Shown here: positions 27,886 to 59,727 of the stretch, in pieces
How positions within the stretch are numbered: position 1 is the stretch's first letter
Layout of the letters: each line of letters begins with the position of its first letter
NCBI GenBank assembly: GCA_944386325.1
Contig: CALXAP010000007.1
Span: 1-64,000 of the forward strand
Reading direction: 5' to 3'
DNA: 64,000 nucleotides
Origin: an uncultured Clostridia bacterium
GTDB taxonomy: Bacteria; Bacillota; Clostridia; TANB77; CAG-508
Made by a program: the position numbers and the translations under genes
The notes under the pieces: generated by a model
The model's input: only the letters and a program-made list of their open reading frames with translations
The model's database searches: none
What the model was told of the DNA's origin: nothing

Positions 27886-28319
27886 TACAGCTATTCTAGT
27901 GTGCCCAGCATGGGCAATAACTTGTGGGTGAAAGTCCCATACAGTGCCTGATAGTGGCGAACTGTTAGTAAATGGCAAGGGTGTCCTTCGTGAGGGGGAA
28001 TCTGAAAGAAGCCAGAGTTGCAAAATCTCGGTCTGACGTACAGAAATCACATATAAGGCTGAAATGAGTTGGGCGAGCTTGCTAGACAAAGCAAAGCCCT
28101 AGTAACTATCCGAAGCTCATACAGTAAATGTGGCAGATATATGAGAGGAAGGTTGTTGTTCTTACCTGGGGAGGTCTGGTATTTTGGAAATATCTTGAAT
28201 TAGATATGAAAATGCTAATAGTGATATTAGAATGAAATATCAGAAGTCAGCAGATACCATAGTAACAATTTGGATATATACGAATTGTGAAGGGTTGAAC
28301 GATAGGAGGATTTGTTTTA

Positions 28320-49768: not shown

Positions 49769-49787
49769 GGGCGAACAGTGTTCGCCC
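49769..49787. repeat. GGGCGAACA palindrome copy 10
   Basis: Perfect GGGCGAACAGTGTTCGCCC followed by CCTACAACTATT, joined to repeat copy B exactly as copy 9 is joined to A. Confidence 0.9.
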
Positions 49788-49840: not shown

Positions 49841-51089
49841 TTAAAAGTCATTTCCCACTATGTTTGCAATATTGTTTTTTGCATCTACTAATGTATTGTA
49901 TAATTTTTTTGATATGGATTTTGTATTTGTTGTTTCGTAATTGTTTATATATTCATTTATATCTAGTATTCTAAATTTTTGTGAACTTACTGATGTGTCT
50001 TTATAAAAATATATTGGATAATATCCTACATTATCGATTGTTATTGTTTTGTTTGCCTGCTCATCTATATGTTTTGTTAATTGTATTTTTAATATTATCG
50101 ATGATGTTGTGTTTTTCTTTGTCTGATCTGCCATGAAATTTCCCAATGAATATGCAACAAAGCAATCTTTTTTTGTGCCATCTTCTAATTCTATTGATTT
50201 TTTATGTATTGATTGAAGTACATGTGGGTGATTTCCTATTATTATATCTACACCATTTTGAAATAGAAAATTTGCTAGTTCTTCTTGCTCGCTTGATTCT
50301 GTTGTATCATACTCTGTTCCCCAATGCATACATGCAATTATTACATCTACATCTTCATTTTTTATTTTATCTAAATTAGATTTAATTTTATCTTTATCAA
50401 TTAAATTTATGCAATAATCCTTCCCATTAGGCACAGGAATTCCATTTGTACCATATGTATATGAAATAATTGCAATTTTTACTCCATTAACATTTTCTAT
50501 TAATATGCTTTCAGAATCTTCTTGTGATGCAAATGTACCGAGTGTGTCTTATATTTTGCTCATCTAAGAAATTTAGTGTTGAAACTAGTCCATCATAACC
50601 TTTATCTAAACTATGATTATTTGCAGTAGAAAGTACATCAATTCCTAAATCTTTTAAGTTTTTAGCTAATTGTTCTGGAGTATTAAAAGTAGGATAACCA
50701 CTGTATTTTCTTTCTTCTCCTGCAAATGTTGTTTCAAGATTTCCTATTGTTAAATCTGAATCTTCAAAACGAGATTTTATTTCTGAAAATACATATGAAA
50801 AATCATAAGTTTGATTAGCTGAATCATAAGCATCTTTGTATTGAGTGTTTTGGCACATAATATCTCCAATTGCTGTTATATTAATTGTAGTTTTTTCAGG
50901 TTTTATGGTATTTTCGGTTTTATTTGTATCTATATTATTTTCAGAAATTATTATAGGATTGTCATCTTGTAACATATCCTCAGGAATATTATATTTAAAT
51001 ACAAATAAAAGTACACATAAGAACACAATGGATATTAAAGTCATTACTCTATTGAATATATCAAATTTCTTTTTTTTATTTTTCTCCAT
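49841..51089 (-). pseudogene. CapA/PgsA-type metallophosphoesterase, frameshifted
   Basis: Two adjoining frames together make one CapA-family protein of about 415 residues. The first (50511-51089) has an N-terminal TM anchor (ISIVFLCVLLFVFKY), then ITAIGDIMCQNTQY, TIGNLETTFAG and TANNHSLDKGYDG. The second (49841-50434) has IACMHWGTEYDTTES, IIGNHPHVLQ and YSLGNFMADQ. The frame changes at about 50540: removing one base there lets RHT continue as GTFASQEDSESILIENV into the second frame. CapA-type proteins act in poly-gamma-glutamate or cell-envelope metabolism outside the membrane. Either the gene is dead or this is a sequence error. Confidence 0.8.
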
Positions 51090-51108: not shown

Positions 51109-53136
51109 TTAATTAATAGGAATAATAATATTAAATTGTGTTCCTTTATTTAATTCGCTAGTAAAAGTTATATCTCCATTAAAATGTGCTTTAATATTTG
51201 AATATGACATAAATAAACCTAGACCAGTACCATTTTTTCCTTTAGTTGTAAACATTTCATTAAATAATTTATTTTTTGTTTCTTCAGACATTCCACAACC
51301 ATAATCTCTAACTGAAATAATTAAGTTGTTTCCTTTTGTATTTACAATTAAATCTATCTGAGAATCTTCTTTTCCATTATAAGCTTGTATTGCATTAGAA
51401 ATAATGTTATTTATAACTTGTACTAAACTATTAATATTACCTTTTACCTTTAATGCTGGATTTGTATTATTAATTATATTTAGTTCTACTAAAGCATTTT
51501 TTAATTCATGTTTCATTAATAATGTTACTTGTTTAATTACTTCTTCAATTGTAAAATAATCTTGATTGTTTTCTGAAAAGGTTACAGCTTGACCTTTTAC
51601 AGCAGTAATAATATCAGACATATATGCAGTATAATTTCTTATTTTATCTATCCATTCTTGCATATCTTTTGCTATTTCATGGTGATCTTCAATAGTAACA
51701 TTTTTATCACTAATTGAGCTTTTATATTCTTCTATTAAATCTGATAATCCTTCTGCAGCACCTGAAATTGACATTATTGGTGTTTTTAAATTATGTGCAA
51801 TTCCACCTATTAATTGACCAAGTGAAGCTAAACGTTCTCTTTCCATTAAAGCATTTTGATTTTGTTTAAGTTGATTGATGTTTTGTCTAGTCATTTCTTG
51901 TGTTTTATTAAATGCTATTATTAAATTCCCCATCTCATTTTCAGTTGTTACAGGAAGTGTTTTTGCTAACTCCGTATCTACATCTCCAATTTTTTCTAGT
52001 CTTGTAGTAACATTTTTTATATCTCTTGAAAGTGAAACACTTATATATATAAGTGTTAGAGAAATAATACATAAAAGTACAATATCTGATATAATAATGT
52101 ATTTAAGTAAATTAAGCTGAACTGTATCATATATTACACCTACATATATATCTCCTAGACCTGTATAATTTATTTTTTGAACATATCCTTCTCTATCTAA
52201 ACAATAATAATCATATGTTCTTCCATCTTGGGAATTAGATTTTTCAATAGCATATTTTACGAAAAATTTAGATAATTGTGAGCCATCTTCAGTTATATAT
52301 TCTCCATTTGTATTCATTAAGAAAAATTTATGAGAAGGATCCATTTTGTCCATATTTTTTAACTTTTCTATAATAGTATAAAAATCATTATATTCTTCTT
52401 GATTAAAATATCTATTAAAAGAAGTTTTATATGATTGAAAATAAATATCTCCTGTTTTTTCAGCTGCTTTAGTATAGCAAACTAAAGATGTAAAAAATAA
52501 TGCGACAATTATAAGTGGCATAAGTTGCATAATTAAAACAACTGCAAGAGATTTATTTTTTCTAGTTTTTGTTTCATTTTCTATTTTTCCACTTATATCT
52601 GGAAATTGTTCATGTAAAGATATAAGTATTTTTTTAAATTGTGTTTGAGAAAAAATAAAACATAATACAGCACCTAATGTGAAAAACAATATATAAATTA
52701 AACATATTTTTATGATAGTTAAAATATATGCTTGTACAAATAAAAATGTAATAGGCATTAGTATTAATGGCAACAATATTTCTAAATAATATAAAAGGTA
52801 GGGGGTGTTTAAACATAGTCCCCTAACCTTTCTAATATAAGCTTCTATTTTCCTTTTATCATTAGTTTGATTTATTTTAGTTAATGTATTATTAATTCTA
52901 CTTAATCTTATTAATAATATTACCAAACTAAAGAAACAAAATAATATTACTATCATTAAATATTGTTGAGTATATGTTAATCCATCTAAAGAAATTTGAA
53001 ACATATTATTTATACTATCTGGCGGGTAGTTTAATATTATAGGCAGAAGAGGATATAATATTAAAACTATTATAAAAGGTATAAATAAATAAAATAAAAA
53101 TATTTTTGTTGTACTTTTTAAGTGAAATTTAGACAT
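51109..53136 (-). CDS. Membrane sensor histidine kinase
   Basis: A 675-residue kinase with about six TM helices (12-36, 59-77, 118-140, 142-163, 199-220, 345-368). An extracytoplasmic sensor of about 120 residues lies before the last TM, then a HAMP-like linker (about 370-425). The phospho-acceptor is in ERLASLGQLIGGIAHNLKTP (His 448). The ATPase boxes are NNIISNAIQAY, VRDYGCGMSEE and GKNGTGLGLFMS. No response regulator gene lies beside it. It follows the NRPS by 30 bp on the same strand; AAAGGAGG stands 13 nt before the ATG. Co-transcription with the NRPS suggests it senses or controls the product. Confidence 0.9.
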   Translation of the reverse strand: MSKFHLKSTTKIFLFYLFIPFIIVLILYPLLPIILNYPPDSINNMFQISLDGLTYTQQYLMIVILFCFFSLVILLIRLSRINNTLTKINQTNDKRKIEAYIRKVRGLCLNTPYLLYYLEILLPLILMPITFLFVQAYILTIIKICLIYILFFTLGAVLCFIFSQTQFKKILISLHEQFPDISGKIENETKTRKNKSLAVVLIMQLMPLIIVALFFTSLVCYTKAAEKTGDIYFQSYKTSFNRYFNQEEYNDFYTIIEKLKNMDKMDPSHKFFLMNTNGEYITEDGSQLSKFFVKYAIEKSNSQDGRTYDYYCLDREGYVQKINYTGLGDIYVGVIYDTVQLNLLKYIIISDIVLLCIISLTLIYISVSLSRDIKNVTTRLEKIGDVDTELAKTLPVTTENEMGNLIIAFNKTQEMTRQNINQLKQNQNALMERERLASLGQLIGGIAHNLKTPIMSISGAAEGLSDLIEEYKSSISDKNVTIEDHHEIAKDMQEWIDKIRNYTAYMSDIITAVKGQAVTFSENNQDYFTIEEVIKQVTLLMKHELKNALVELNIINNTNPALKVKGNINSLVQVINNIISNAIQAYNGKEDSQIDLIVNTKGNNLIISVRDYGCGMSEETKNKLFNEMFTTKGKNGTGLGLFMSYSNIKAHFNGDITFTSELNKGTQFNIIIPIN

Positions 53137-53166: not shown

Positions 53167-56100
53167 TTATCTCCTGTTTATTATTGTATTATAAAATTTT
53201 TTAAAATAATTTTGATCTATTTTAGGCCATGACATATGAAGTTTATTCATATAATCTAAAGTAAAGTCTGAATTTATTTCAATATTAGAATCTTCTGTTA
53301 TTACATCACTTGTTATATCATTAATAATACCTAAAATATTATCTTTATTATTAGTTTTAGTTAAGAATCTGTAAAATTTATCATCTGGAATTATATCAAT
53401 ATGATAACCTAAATTATTAAAATATTCTAGTATTTCTGAAAATTTTAATTTATTATTATTTAATATGTGAAAAACCTTTCCATAACTGCTTTTATATGAA
53501 GACATATTAACTATAATTTTAGCACATAAATCAACAGGAGAAAAGTCTACTTCTAAATTTGAAAGAGATTCAGGAAATTTGCCTAATTGTATAAATGAAT
53601 GAAGTCTGTTATATGAAGCATTTTGTTTATAATTTTCTTGAAATTGTCCATCAGAAAATCTAGACATAATATTTCCTAATCTGTAAACACATACATCTAA
53701 ACCACTTTGCATAGCTTTATATACATTGTATTCTGCTTCAAATTTAGTTTTTATATAAATATTATCTTCATAATTTTGTCCTATATATAAAGATGATTCA
53801 TTAAAAGTTTCTATATTTTTTGTATCTGGAATATTAGTACCAGAAACAGAAATTGTTGAAATATAGTTTAATTTTGTATTAAATTTTTTACAAAATTCTA
53901 ATACATGATTTGTACCATCGATATTTATATTTTTAAATGTTTCAGAATCTCCATAATGGTCAACTCTTGCGGCAGAATGAATAACAGTATCAACTTTATG
54001 ACCTAATTTATTGTATTTATTTAAAGGAATATTTAAATTTTCATTTATTATATTACCTTTAATAACAATAACTCTATTATTTAATAATGGAGAAATATCT
54101 TCATTAAAGTAGAATTTAAACTTATTTATTATTCTATCTGTGGCATCAACGTTATTTTTATCTCTAATTAAACAATATATATTTGTATTTGTATTTTTAA
54201 TTAAATAGTAAAGTATATGTATTCCTAAATATCCAGTTGCACCAGTTAATAAGATGTTTTCAATTTTGGCTTTTTGATTTGAAAAATCTGTATTAAAAGT
54301 ATAATAAACATTTCCATTTAAATTTTTATGTAATGGATGTTTAGATTTTATATTATCATTTATATTTCTAATTGTTTTATATTCATAGAAATCTTGAATA
54401 TTTACTTTATAATTTTTTTCTAATAAATCTATACTAACTTTCATTAATGTTAAAGAATCTGCACCTATTTCTAAAATATCATCATCAATACTTATATTAT
54501 AGATATTTAAGGATTCTTCTAATATATTTTTTAGAGTTCTTTCAAAATTGTTTCTAGGAGGAGCATAATTTTCTGTAATATCTATATTAAGTTTTTTGGC
54601 AAGAAGAGCTTTTCTATCTGTTTTTCCATTATGATTAAGAGGAATTTTATCAACAAAAGCAAATATATTTGGAATCATATATTCAGGTAATTTATCTTGT
54701 AAAAATTGCTTTAAATCTCTAGGTGTTAGTTTAGCAGCTGAAACTAAAAAAGCTATTAATTGAACATCTTTATCATTATTCTTTTTAGGTAAAACAACAC
54801 ATTTATTAATATAAGGGTGTGATAAAAGTTTTTCTTCAATTTCTCCAAGTTCAACTCTAAATCCTCTTAATTTTAGTTGATTATCCATTCTTCCTTTATA
54901 ATATAAATTGCCATCTTCTGATAAATACCCACTGTCCCCAGAAAGATAAATTTTTTCACCAGGAATATATGGATTTTCTATAAATTTTTCTTTATTTAAA
55001 TCTTCTCTGTTTAAATAACCTTTACATATTCCAGGACCTGCTACACATATTTGACCTTCTACATTAAAAGGCAATAAATTTAAATCATTATTCATTATAT
55101 ATACTTTTAATGTTGGTATAGGTACACCAATATTAGAAGAAGGATTTTCCATATCATCTTTACTTAATTCTTTAAAAGTAACATGTACTGTTGTTTCTGT
55201 AATTCCATACATATTAATTAATTTTGTGAAATTATATTTTTTAGACCAATCTTTTATAAGTGTAGGATTTAATGCTTCACCACCAAAAATTATATATCTA
55301 ATATGTAAATTACTATCTTCACGTTTTAATTCTGCATCAAGTAAATTGTAAAAATATGTAGGTGTTTGATTTAGTATAGTAACTTTTTCCTTGCGAAGTA
55401 AATCTAAAAATTCATAAGGATTTTTAGAAGTGTTTTCAGGTACTAAAACAAGTTTTCCACCATATAAAAGTGCTCCATACATTTCCCAAACAGAAAAATC
55501 GAATGCAACTGAGTGAAACATTGTCCATACATCATTTTCTGTAAAATCGAAGTCATAATCATCGTTTTTCATAAGTCTAACTACATTTCTATGTGTTATC
55601 ATAACACCTTTTGGATTTCCTGTAGAACCAGATGTATATATAATGTAAAGTAAATCATCAGGAGAAATTTTAGTGTTTAAATTTTCTATATTTTTATTAT
55701 TATAAATTTCATTATTATCTAAATCTATTAAAAGTGTTTCTATTTGGATAGAATCATCTTTTGATTCTTTATTTGTTAATAAGATTTTTGCATTGCTATC
55801 TTTTAACATAAAACTTATTCTATCATGAGGGTAAGCTAAATTAATAGGTAAATAGCAAGCACCAGCTTTTATAATAGCAAGTATAGCAATTATCATTTCT
55901 AATGATTTATTAATACGTAAAGCTACAATAGAATTATTAGTAATTCCTTTTTCTTTTAAATATCTCGCAAGCTGATTTGCTTTATTATTTAATTCTTTAT
56001 ATGTAAGTGTTTTTCCCTCATAAGTTATAGCAATATTATTTGGTGTATCTTTTACTTGTTTTTCAAAGAGACTAACAATATTTTCTTTATCTGGATATTT

Positions 56101-57453
56101 TGTTTCAGGTTTATTAAATTCATATAATATATAATTTATTTCTGGTTTTGTTAGTATATCTATGTTTCTTATTACTATATCAGGATTTTTTAATACTTGC
56201 TCTAACATATTTAATATATGGCTATGTAATACAGATATTTCTTTTTCTGAAAATGCTTGAACTTGATAATCATAATAAATACTTACCATGTTATCATCCA
56301 TATCACAAATATGAATATTTAGCGGTTCAGAAATATGTCCATTAAAACTCCAAATTCTAGAGTAATCTATTTTATTTTTATCAAAACCAATATTAGAATT
56401 TTGGTAAGACAAAATAAAATTATATAATGATTCATTTGTATTAAATTTTTTTCTTATATATTTTAATAGTTCCATATATGGGTATTTTTGATGTCTGAAG
56501 ATATTTAATTCCTGAACAGAAATGTTCTTTATAAAATCACTAAATTTAATTGAGTTTTCGACGATGATATTAAAAGGTAATGTGTTAATAAACATTCCCA
56601 TAGTTTCTTTTTCTTTGATATTTTTTCTATTTAGAATAGGTGAACCAAAAACTATATTATCTAAATTTGTTGTTTTATTTAGATAGATACAGTACATACC
56701 TAAAAAAAGATTAAATAAAGAAATACGGTGCTTAGTACAAAAGTCATTTATTTTGTTTGCCAAGTTAGTAGACAGTTGAAATTCTTTTCTAATAGCTCGA
56801 CAGTCGTGAGACATGTTTTTGTAATTAGGGCAAAACGAAGCAATCTCAGTAATTGAATCTGAGTATTTTTCTTCCCAATATTTTTTATCTGTATTAAATT
56901 TTTCACTTTCAACATATTTTTTTTGTGAATCAATAAAGTCTATATATGAATTATTTAAAGAGTCGTTAATAGGAATATTATGAGTTAAATCATAATAATG
57001 TGATAAAATTTCGTTGCCCAAAGAACAACCAGACCATGAATCTAAAATTAGGTGATGTCCAATACCGATGAAGCCACCAGTTCCATTAGAAAATTTAAAG
57101 ATTTTAAAACTGATTAATGGAGAATCAATGATTTTAAAGGGTTGACTAGCCAGTAAAGAAGATTTTTTCTTTAAATCTGCTTCACTTTTTACATTAAAAA
57201 TATCAATATCAAAAGGAATATAATTTGTAACATACTGTTTTGCTTTTAGTAAAGAATCTAAAGTTATTTGAATTCTCATTGCGTCATTCTTTTGTACAAA
57301 CAAATTAATCGCTTTTTTTAAAGCGTCAACGTCAATAACCTCATTAATGATTACAGTACCTGTTATATTATTAATAGATGTATTACTATAAAATTGCTCG
57401 GTATACCAAATCAATTTTTGAGGATTTGTTAAATCATACAATTTTTTTTCCAT
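53167..57453 (-). CDS. Single-module NRPS, C-A-T-R, predicted threonine-activating
   Basis: A 1428-residue nonribosomal peptide synthetase. Condensation domain (1-430): HHLILDSWS at about 133-141, where the family has HHxxxDG, so Gly is replaced by Ser. Adenylation domain (about 465-960): YTSGSTGNPKG, AFDFSVWEMYG, NMYGITETTVH, SGDSGY, RGFRVELGEIE and NGKTDRKAL. The ten specificity residues read by alignment to GrsA are D-F-W-N-I-G-M-V-H-K, the classical threonine code. The carrier domain has IGADSLTLM. The C-terminal reductase (about 1065-1428) has LLTGATGYLGIHIL, Thr/Ser and Y-x-x-x-K-type signatures, predicting NAD(P)H release as aldehyde or alcohol. A lone C domain at the start suggests N-acylation. 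Start at MEKKLYDL after GGATGG. Confidence 0.93.
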   Translation of the reverse strand: MEKKLYDLTNPQKLIWYTEQFYSNTSINNITGTVIINEVIDVDALKKAINLFVQKNDAMRIQITLDSLLKAKQYVTNYIPFDIDIFNVKSEADLKKKSSLLASQPFKIIDSPLISFKIFKFSNGTGGFIGIGHHLILDSWSGCSLGNEILSHYYDLTHNIPINDSLNNSYIDFIDSQKKYVESEKFNTDKKYWEEKYSDSITEIASFCPNYKNMSHDCRAIRKEFQLSTNLANKINDFCTKHRISLFNLFLGMYCIYLNKTTNLDNIVFGSPILNRKNIKEKETMGMFINTLPFNIIVENSIKFSDFIKNISVQELNIFRHQKYPYMELLKYIRKKFNTNESLYNFILSYQNSNIGFDKNKIDYSRIWSFNGHISEPLNIHICDMDDNMVSIYYDYQVQAFSEKEISVLHSHILNMLEQVLKNPDIVIRNIDILTKPEINYILYEFNKPETKYPDKENIVSLFEKQVKDTPNNIAITYEGKTLTYKELNNKANQLARYLKEKGITNNSIVALRINKSLEMIIAILAIIKAGACYLPINLAYPHDRISFMLKDSNAKILLTNKESKDDSIQIETLLIDLDNNEIYNNKNIENLNTKISPDDLLYIIYTSGSTGNPKGVMITHRNVVRLMKNDDYDFDFTENDVWTMFHSVAFDFSVWEMYGALLYGGKLVLVPENTSKNPYEFLDLLRKEKVTILNQTPTYFYNLLDAELKREDSNLHIRYIIFGGEALNPTLIKDWSKKYNFTKLINMYGITETTVHVTFKELSKDDMENPSSNIGVPIPTLKVYIMNNDLNLLPFNVEGQICVAGPGICKGYLNREDLNKEKFIENPYIPGEKIYLSGDSGYLSEDGNLYYKGRMDNQLKLRGFRVELGEIEEKLLSHPYINKCVVLPKKNNDKDVQLIAFLVSAAKLTPRDLKQFLQDKLPEYMIPNIFAFVDKIPLNHNGKTDRKALLAKKLNIDITENYAPPRNNFERTLKNILEESLNIYNISIDDDILEIGADSLTLMKVSIDLLEKNYKVNIQDFYEYKTIRNINDNIKSKHPLHKNLNGNVYYTFNTDFSNQKAKIENILLTGATGYLGIHILYYLIKNTNTNIYCLIRDKNNVDATDRIINKFKFYFNEDISPLLNNRVIVIKGNIINENLNIPLNKYNKLGHKVDTVIHSAARVDHYGDSETFKNINIDGTNHVLEFCKKFNTKLNYISTISVSGTNIPDTKNIETFNESSLYIGQNYEDNIYIKTKFEAEYNVYKAMQSGLDVCVYRLGNIMSRFSDGQFQENYKQNASYNRLHSFIQLGKFPESLSNLEVDFSPVDLCAKIIVNMSSYKSSYGKVFHILNNNKLKFSEILEYFNNLGYHIDIIPDDKFYRFLTKTNNKDNILGIINDITSDVITEDSNIEINSDFTLDYMNKLHMSWPKIDQNYFKKFYNTIINRR

Positions 57454-57620
57454 AATTATACCATCCATTTTTTATAAAATTATATCTATTTTACAACAAA
57501 ATTATGTAAAAATAAAGAGCTTTTTGGAAAAAAATATCATTTTTTGATATTTTTGTTGATATTATGCCTAAAAATAACCTTATATGATTAAAGAAAATTG
57601 TGATTATAATTCACTTTATA

Positions 57621-57821
57621 GATTTTGAAATAATAATATTGAATAAATTTTTCGGCTCAATACGATATTTAAGAATTTGTAAAATAATTTAATGAGCCTC
57701 TTTCATTCAGGCTCAAAATCAAAGATTTTGCCCATGAACATTCCTCATTAAATTATATAACAAATTCTATAAACATCTCCAATCGCATTCAAAATTTATT
57801 CAATATTATTATATCAAAATC
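57621..57821. mobile_element. 201-bp hairpin element, full copy
   Basis: From GATTTTGAAATAATAATAT to TATTATTATATCAAAATC, 168 bp from the NRPS start codon. The region 57454-57620 has no gene. Confidence 0.87.
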
Positions 57822-57862
57822 TACAAATCAAAATATAGAAAAATCTAACAGAATAGTTGTAG

Positions 57863-57881
57863 GGGCGAACACTGTTCGCAC
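57863..57881. repeat. GGGCGAACA palindrome copy 11
   Basis: GGGCGAACACTGTTCGCACG, one mismatch in the right arm. TTGTAG stands on the left and CACTACAGAGC on the right. It follows the hairpin element by 42 bp. Confidence 0.85.
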
Positions 57882-57965
57882 GCACTACAGAGCTATTTCT
57901 CAAAAAATAAACATGTAAATTTTATCTGTCAATATTAAAAAAATTCCTAAAATTTACAAAAAATA

Positions 57966-57994
57966 TTGACAATTGTATAAATGTAAAGTATAAT
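57966..57994 (+). promoter_or_regulatory. Consensus promoter of the type III TA locus
   Basis: TTGACA at 57966-57971, a 17-nt spacer, TATAAT at 57989-57994: a perfect strong promoter. Transcription would start near 58001, about 30 bp before the first RNA repeat. Confidence 0.88.
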
Positions 57995-58028
57995 GAATAT
58001 ACTATAAGAGAAGTACTAAAGTATTTCA

Positions 58029-58200
58029 TTTGGAGTATCCAAGCCATAAGTTGGAATTAAAAATTTGGAGTATCCAAGCCATAAGTTGGAATTAAAAATT
58101 TGGAGTATCCAAGCCATAAGTTGGAATTAAAAATTTGGAGTATCCAAGCCATAAGTTGGAATTAAAAAATTATGCGGGGTGCAGAAAATGTACTTCGCAC
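58029..58200 (+). ncRNA. toxI: ToxI-like antitoxin RNA: four 35-nt tandem repeats
   Basis: Four direct copies at 58031, 58066, 58101 and 58136, period exactly 35. Each carries TTGGAGTATCCAAGCCATAA then GTTGGAATTAAAAA. Type III antitoxins are RNAs of tandem 30-40-nt pseudoknots cut from each other by the toxin in A-rich sites; GGAGTATCC can pair locally and AATTAAAAA is a fitting cleavage zone. A hairpin with GTGC and GCAC ends and TTTTTAC (58178-58206) follows, placed as the attenuating terminator between antitoxin and toxin. Promoter, repeats, terminator and toxin are in the canonical order. Confidence 0.85.
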
Positions 58201-58221
58201 TTTTTACATTTAAGGAGGAAT

Positions 58222-58713
58222 ATGAAAAGATTACATTTTTATAATATAAAAGATGAATATATAAAATATTTATATCAATTTGATAATAAAGTTCCATTTA
58301 ATAAAGAGTGCAAAAGACCATATATTGGAATAGTTCTAGATATAAATGAAAATACATATTTTGCACCAATGTTTTCTCCAAAAAAGCAACATATGAAGTA
58401 TAAGTCTAATGTTACATATGTAAAAATAGAAAAAAATTTAGGAATTATAAAATTAAATAATATGATACCAGTTAATAAAAAAGATTTATTTTATATAGAT
58501 TTTAATAATATAAAGAATGAAAAATATAAAAATTTATTAATTCAGCAAAATAGCTATATACAAATAAATTCGGATAGGATAAGAAAAAATGCAGATAAAT
58601 TATACAAGTTTGTTACAGTAGATAAACAAGATTTTTTTCTAAATATATGTTGTGATTTTAAGAAATTAGAAGAAAAATGTAGGGAATATGAAAAGAAAAA
58701 TAGGAGCAATTAA
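58222..58713 (+). CDS. toxN: ToxN/AbiQ-family type III endoribonuclease toxin
   Basis: A 163-residue RNase toxin. It opens LHFYNIKDEYIKYLYQFDNKVPFN, then RPYIGIVLDINENTYFAPMFSPKKQH, with the conserved active-site S-P-K-K at 52-55, and GIIKLNNMIPV, the ToxN/AbiQ core. ToxN cuts mRNA and its own ToxI precursor; the system aborts phage infection or stabilises DNA. The ATG follows AAGGAGG. The open frame extends upstream through the repeats, but that part is the antitoxin array and is not translated. The stop overlaps a bidirectional terminator. Confidence 0.9.
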   Translation: MKRLHFYNIKDEYIKYLYQFDNKVPFNKECKRPYIGIVLDINENTYFAPMFSPKKQHMKYKSNVTYVKIEKNLGIIKLNNMIPVNKKDLFYIDFNNIKNEKYKNLLIQQNSYIQINSDRIRKNADKLYKFVTVDKQDFFLNICCDFKKLEEKCREYEKKNRSN

Positions 58714-59324: not shown

Positions 59325-59525
59325 GATTTTGAAATAATAATATCGAATAAATTTTTCGGCTCAATACGATATTTAAGAATTTGTAATATAATTTAATGAG
59401 CCTCTTTCATTCAGGCTCAAAATCAAAGATTTTGCCCATGAACATTCCTCATTAAATTATATAACAAATTCTATAAACATCTCCAATCGCATTCAAAATT
59501 TATTCAATATTATTATATCAAAATC
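59325..59525. mobile_element. 201-bp hairpin element, full copy
   Basis: From GATTTTGAAATAATAATAT to TATTATTATATCAAAATC. The left flank TTACAATTCACAGCATGC is the conserved outer flank. Confidence 0.87.
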
Positions 59526-59564
59526 TATAAACTATAATATAAAAAATAAATAGAACAACTGTAG

Positions 59565-59583
59565 GGGCGAACAGTGTTCGCCC
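59565..59583. repeat. GGGCGAACA palindrome copy 12
   Basis: Perfect GGGCGAACAGTGTTCGCCC, with CTGTAG on the left and GCACTACAGAG on the right, 39 bp after the hairpin element. Confidence 0.9.
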
Positions 59584-59727
59584 GCACTACAGAGTTATTT
59601 CTCTAAAATCAGACATATAAATTTTAGCTGTAAATAGTAATTCTTATTTCAAAATCTTTATATTATTCAATATTAACTCAGTATTATATTATTATGATAC
59701 TTACTGCAAGTTGTACACGCTTTATTT

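Follow-up and report, generated by a model that had tools for sequence, protein, structure and literature searches.

N-acyl dipeptide aldehydes made by nonribosomal peptide synthetases (NRPSs) of the gut have been reported to inhibit proteases (PMC8518294, PMC12327764). The subject here is a one-module NRPS gene in a 64,000-nucleotide stretch of DNA (positions 1 to 64,000 of contig CALXAP010000007.1; hereafter the window) from an uncultured Clostridia bacterium (assembly GCA_944386325.1), together with the sensor histidine kinase gene that directly follows it. In more than 100 related loci a kinase of this family stands directly after an NRPS, and a response regulator of the cyclic di-GMP (c-di-GMP) type is often the next gene; NRPS and kinase form an apparent operon. 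The NRPSs of BGC0001686 (product N-octanoyl-Met-Phe-H) and of ruminopeptin resemble the window NRPS in belonging to gut Clostridia and in the acylated amino aldehyde expected as product. Clusters of this type combine a starter condensation (C) domain with a terminal reductase. Their NRPSs have two modules and make dipeptide aldehydes, whereas the window NRPS has a single module, for threonine. A kinase partner is not mentioned for the gut peptide-aldehyde NRPSs in PMC8518294 or PMC12327764, and a literature search that covered few subscription papers found no description of an NRPS-kinase linkage. Taken alone, the window NRPS is a further member of an already known kind; the interest for specialists lies in the near-invariant pairing of synthase and kinase, joined by an HD-GYP regulator, a cassette that appears to be a new variant.

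Among NCBIfam families, the best whole-protein match to the window NRPS is AusA, the aureusimine/phevalin synthetase of Staphylococcus (753.5 bits). AusA has the domain order A-T-C-A-T-R (A, adenylation; T, carrier; R, thioester reductase) and joins two amino acids into free-amine products that cyclise to pyrazinones. Identity as an AusA orthologue was rejected, since the score falls far below the NF047350 equivalog cut-off of 2500 and the architecture differs. The closest solved structure to the T-R end is 6VTJ (E 3e-68, a comparison of the protein end only), a didomain of peptidyl carrier protein and reductase (PCP-R), which we take to come from an archaeal NRPS, that of Methanobrevibacter ruminantium.

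A similar series of lipid-like signal synthase, multi-pass membrane kinase and HD-GYP regulator is found in the RpfF-RpfC-RpfG quorum-sensing system of Xanthomonas (diffusible signal factor, DSF), in which RpfG is the HD-GYP response regulator. The synthase of Rpf/DSF systems is of the RpfF type (crotonase family), whereas here an NRPS occupies the synthase position. Five membrane helices are predicted for RpfC (PMC12838280). The kinase described here differs from RpfC in having a Cache-like or seven-transmembrane (7TM) sensor and in lacking receiver (REC) and histidine phosphotransfer (HPT) domains. The Rpf arrangement of regulator beside kinase is absent from the window genome, where the regulator gene is on another contig, but is seen in 62 of the 69 related loci with enough downstream sequence, in which a response regulator with receiver and HD-GYP domains lies within four genes of the kinase. 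At most, the cassette may work by analogy with Rpf; none of its proteins is a member of that system.

The synthetase and its predicted product

The NRPS gene is one open frame (53167-57468, reverse strand) encoding 1433 amino acids. The start at 57453 given in an earlier, sequence-only reading of the gene is the second ATG of this frame, with GGATGG before it. That reading described a complete C-A-T-R order within one gene, and the order and extents of the Pfam matches bear this out: Condensation at residues 9-443 (E 3e-75), AMP-binding at 468-819, AMP-binding_C at 876-949, PP-binding at 978-1036 and NAD_binding_4 at 1074-1319, an order that places the protein among the reductase-terminated NRPSs. 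The NCBIfam model for the amino-acid adenylation domain scores 426 bits, above its cut-off of 317, and that for thioester reductase scores 199 bits, just under its cut-off of 213; alignments of the R domain with the AusA reductase (4F6L) and with 6VTJ span the entire domain. The motifs listed in Table 1 are all intact, including the serine of the carrier domain, and the reductase, which the sequence-only reading had allowed might prove dead, retains both its GATGYLG motif and its Tyr/Lys pair (Y-x3-K). Aligned to GrsA (phmmer against 1AMU and a pairwise alignment script), the A domain yields the specificity residues D-F-W-N-I-G-M-V-H, with Lys (A10) from NGKTDR as the tenth. DFWNIGMVH-K is the textbook threonine code, and the code previously read by eye is thus recovered by alignment, with no different specificity call arising. 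By these residues the A domain is predicted to be threonine-activating.

Table 1. Coordinates of the synthetase, the kinase and their domains within the window
Feature	Position	Strand	Basis or remark
C-A-T-R nonribosomal peptide synthetase, threonine code	53167..57453	-	alternative start 57468
Condensation domain, first (starter) position, HHLILDS	56140..57444	-	Pfam and motif
Adenylation domain, code DFWNIGMVH-K (Thr)	54622..56067	-	Pfam and GrsA alignment
Carrier (T/PCP) domain, IGADSL	54361..54537	-	Pfam and motif
Thioester reductase (R) domain, GATGYLG and YIKTK	53191..54249	-	Pfam, NCBIfam, alignment to 4F6L and 6VTJ
Sensor histidine kinase, 675 amino acids, conserved partner	51109..53136	-	begins 30 bp after the NRPS stop
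Extracellular Cache/PAS-like domain of kinase (about residues 216-342), between membrane helices	52111..52491	-	AlphaFold model and VIA-align

The window genome (1.69 Mb in 37 contigs, 99% complete) comes from a family of Clostridia with small genomes, known mostly from gut metagenomes; Candidatus Merdicola faecigallinarum is the only named relative among those compared, nearly all of which are metagenome assemblies. A match of some kind, in many cases a long NRPS match, is present in 215 of the 243 family genomes, across which one-module (about 1,430 amino acids) and two-module (about 2,490 amino acids) NRPSs are both common. The closest complete relatives of the window NRPS share 91%, 52% and 49% identity with it. 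On a tree of 100 R domains it falls, with strong support, into a set of seven rows, and the identical threonine code was found in the clade members inspected (the window, L052, L053/L117, L054/L114, L113, L115 and L116). Because other one-module NRPSs of the family carry many different A codes, the threonine code is a marker of this clade and not the default of the family.

The C domain lies at the N terminus of the protein with no NRPS module upstream, and 35 of 80 related loci, two of them in the threonine clade (L116, L117), have a gene for a FadD-like acyl ligase next to the NRPS; the window genome has a FadD-like homologue on contig C8 (44-50% identity). From this gene context a fatty-acyl starter is likely. 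The sequence-only reading had drawn the same acyl-CoA or acyl-carrier input from a C-domain motif of HHxxxDS instead of HHxxxDG. The acyl input is favoured by context; the motif is no special sign of it, and was rejected as proof of a starter domain, because 111 of the 115 first C domains in this NRPS class have S or A after HHxxxD. The product is most plausibly a small lipid-like molecule, N-acyl-L-threoninal or threoninol. Assignment to the aldehyde-forming NRPSs of gut clostridia, proposed earlier, is supported by the monomodular, threonine-coding C-A-T-R architecture and the intact-looking reductase. The accompanying suggestion of pyrazinones had to be given up: these need a dipeptide with a free N-terminal amine, which an acylated single residue does not have, and an N-acyl single-residue aldehyde should not cyclise in this way.

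The kinase and regulator, the commonness of such NRPSs in the family and a second NRPS of the same genome lay outside the sequence-only reading. The second NRPS, the only other one in the window genome, is encoded on contig C2 with the order C-A-T-C-A-T-R in two frames. It has its own reductase and so would release its product, not hand it on. Its gene (L004:8456-15905) is broken by a one-base frame change at GTTAAACGG, found at the same site in two species of the same genus with both halves open (L004; L011, L015); the candidate explanations are an old frameshift common to both species, a site of recoding and an enzyme made in two parts.

Linkage to a sensor kinase and an HD-GYP regulator

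The kinase is the only copy of its kind in the window genome. Viewed from the NRPS side, a kinase of the partner family is downstream in 60 of 61 family loci, with monomodular and multimodular NRPSs alike, the exception being a contig end; these loci comprise 41 selected for NRPS similarity, the window among them, and 20 selected because they are multimodular. At L111 a short NRPS remainder precedes the kinase, and at L097 and L101 the kinase is split. A stricter, motif-based kinase count had seven misses, all accounted for by kinases that are split or divergent, by the NRPS remainder or by the contig end. Viewed from the kinase side, a search of 84,980 GTDB species genomes with the kinase alignment alone gave 79 loci with upstream sequence, and in 78 of them an NRPS is directly upstream on the same strand, mostly at a gap of 10-20 bp. 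The latter figure applies to the Cache-type sensor, which all of the best-scoring loci carry, and the two sets of loci overlap in species. In other families the same kinase core was also seen after ABC-2 type permeases or a 543-amino-acid protein with no Pfam match, not after an NRPS (L245, L247, L249, L240, L241).

Kinase residues 1-430 were modelled with AlphaFold from 40 aligned relatives (mean pLDDT 87); the model has a helical membrane part, an extracellular alpha/beta domain (residues in Table 1) and a helix leading to HAMP. Foldseek with the sensor region gave no match under E 0.001. VIA-align places the modelled domain with Cache/PAS-type sensor domains, at Z 9.2 to the chemoreceptor domain 2qhk and 8.8 to the Roseburia uracil dCache receptor 9hvj, values of 8-9 being only moderately over background, and the Cache assignment derives from this comparison. 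At other loci the same kinase core carries a shorter 7TM sensor with a PAS domain (PF16927 in the members tested). Sensor type changes four times on the NRPS R-domain tree against a shuffled mean of 23.7, and none of 500 shuffles was as low (main group). By module number there are 88 monomodular loci with the Cache-like sensor, 20 multimodular with 7TM, seven monomodular with 7TM and none multimodular with the Cache-like sensor, some species being counted twice; the shorter type is thus present in all 20 multimodular loci. The claim that sensor type co-varies with module number was reduced to one of co-inheritance, as a phylogenetic independent-pairs test had too few events. Clustering of sensor type on the tree shows that synthase and sensor are inherited together, not that one recognises the product of the other.

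The output domain of the regulator is of the HD-GYP type, and no DNA-binding domain was recognised. The series NRPS, kinase, HD-GYP regulator is also found outside the family, in f3 (same order), f39, f63, f75, f15 and f9, with about 35-48% NRPS identity, and in f41 NRPS and kinase occur in this order without the regulator. It is mainly because the regulator also lies downstream of the kinase in other families that it is counted as a partner. In the window genome its one close copy (72% identity to a relative's version) is on contig C2, beside the two-module NRPS, and the cassette appears to be split in this genus, the kinase lying with the threonine NRPS and the regulator with the other. The HD and GYP motifs of this copy are intact and the genome encodes two GGDEF proteins, so that an output through c-di-GMP is possible.

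Other features of the window

Directly after the kinase lies a CapA-like (PGA_cap) gene (49841-51089) that is split in two frames. It is likewise split in the sister species (L052), and is therefore probably an old pseudogene. On the other side of the NRPS is a type III toxin-antitoxin module (57966-58713) consisting of ToxN (PF13958) and 35-nucleotide tandem repeats upstream of it at 58028-58167. A perfect TTGACA-17-TATAAT promoter likewise precedes ToxN, at 57966; a promoter scan of the region found 85 matches with 87 expected, which is no better than chance. The ToxN region and an open reading frame of 155 amino acids are flanked by direct repeats (57621-57938 and 59325-59640; 97% identity over 222 nucleotides and 82% over 104) that have an inner inverted repeat and look like an intergenic element that is mobile or repeated. 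Intergenic DNA at 49769-49787, 57856-57898 and 59548-59590 contains the palindrome GGGCGAACACTGTTCGCCC or near variants of it. Matches to group II intron domains are present at 27984-28295 (Rfam RF02001, RF01998).

Proposed role and alternative explanations

The role of the NRPS, predicted to make N-acyl-L-threoninal or the corresponding alcohol, would most likely be in signalling through the kinase and the HD-GYP regulator with a c-di-GMP output, a proposal to which we give an even chance of being right. The A domain would load threonine on the T domain, the starter C domain would couple it to an acyl-CoA or acyl-carrier group, and reduction with NAD(P)H by the R domain would set the product free. 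The multi-pass membrane kinase, with its extracellular Cache-like domain, would be tuned to this product or to a process that the product controls. It would then hand phosphate to the HD-GYP regulator, in the window genome in trans to the one encoded on contig C2, and the regulator would in turn act through c-di-GMP.

Several observations weigh against this proposal. Kinase and regulator are on different contigs in this genus, and the second NRPS has no adjacent kinase. In two genomes (G011, G044) the regulator and a divergent HtrA-like protease lie side by side without NRPS or kinase, so the presence of the regulator at this site is no proof of partnership. The kinase core is found with ABC-2 permeases or with genes of no known family in families f54 and f41. 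Shared ancestry alone might explain why sensor type tracks NRPS lineage, and the kinase could sense something else and simply control the NRPS. Activation of the carrier domain is assumed: an AcpS-type enzyme is the sole phosphopantetheinyl transferase found in the window genome, a single one is also the case in nearly all relatives sampled, and AcpS must then serve the NRPS carrier. An Sfp-like gene adjoins the NRPS in one related family (L234).

Alternatively, the product may be an aldehyde-warhead inhibitor of host or competitor proteases, with the kinase doing no more than turning on the operon when it meets an external stimulus, for instance protease stress; we regard this as rather unlikely. 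The related gut dipeptide aldehydes are protease inhibitors (PMC8518294, PMC12327764). The family's chromosomal site reads HtrA < NRPS > kinase > regulator > Tex, and 55 of the 62 loci with sufficient sequence, including the conjugative-element contexts L061, L090 and L104, have beside the NRPS, away from the kinase, a divergent gene for a secreted HtrA-like serine protease that contains a PDZ domain. HtrA is, however, not adjacent to the window NRPS, and in the two genomes without an NRPS it is the direct divergent neighbour of the regulator at about 190 bp, from which it follows that the NRPS-kinase pair either occupies a resident HtrA/regulator site or has been lost from one. HtrA was not accepted as a dedicated target or partner, given this pairing without an NRPS and its occurrence outside the family only within the same order. 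A regulator without a recognised DNA-binding domain makes direct transcriptional control of the operon less than obvious, and a single-residue acyl threoninal would mimic a protease substrate less well than a dipeptide does. The two roles are not mutually exclusive, and inhibition is possible alongside signalling.

The same shared site means that many of the loci are not independent, as would be expected if NRPS and kinase were merely co-inherited in one lineage and the task of the kinase were unrelated to the synthase. This is improbable, as the pair is kept in differing surroundings (the window, L061/L090/L104 and other Clostridia families at roughly 35-49% identity) and the kinase query recovered loci with an NRPS directly upstream almost without exception. 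The kinase might instead be a self-protection or damage sensor for reactive-aldehyde stress, with no part in signalling between cells. Tight linkage of synthase and sensor is likewise expected of self-resistance genes, and the sensor does have an extracellular domain. The cassette has no conserved exporter, aldehyde dehydrogenase or target copy, however, and the occurrence of Cache-like and 7TM modules on one kinase core fits ligand recognition better than general stress, which makes a damage sensor quite improbable.

Many gut Clostridia carry reductase-terminated NRPSs, and discussion of what these make has centred on the inhibition of host proteases. With a kinase and an HD-GYP regulator as near-invariant partners, the question would shift from a host protease to a bacterial receptor, and the cassette offers a testable ligand-receptor pair for each NRPS variant. 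For these bacteria, the literature searched yielded no comparable small-molecule quorum signal. More tentatively, and as a possibility well short of probable, the abundant reductase-terminated NRPSs of gut Clostridia may be quorum-signal synthases, each producing a distinct N-acyl amino (or dipeptide) aldehyde or alcohol that is read by the co-inherited kinase next to it, with c-di-GMP as output. If this were true, N-acyl-threoninal, the formula of which is two hydrogens apart from that of an acyl-homoserine lactone, would be a Gram-positive counterpart of the acyl-homoserine lactones.

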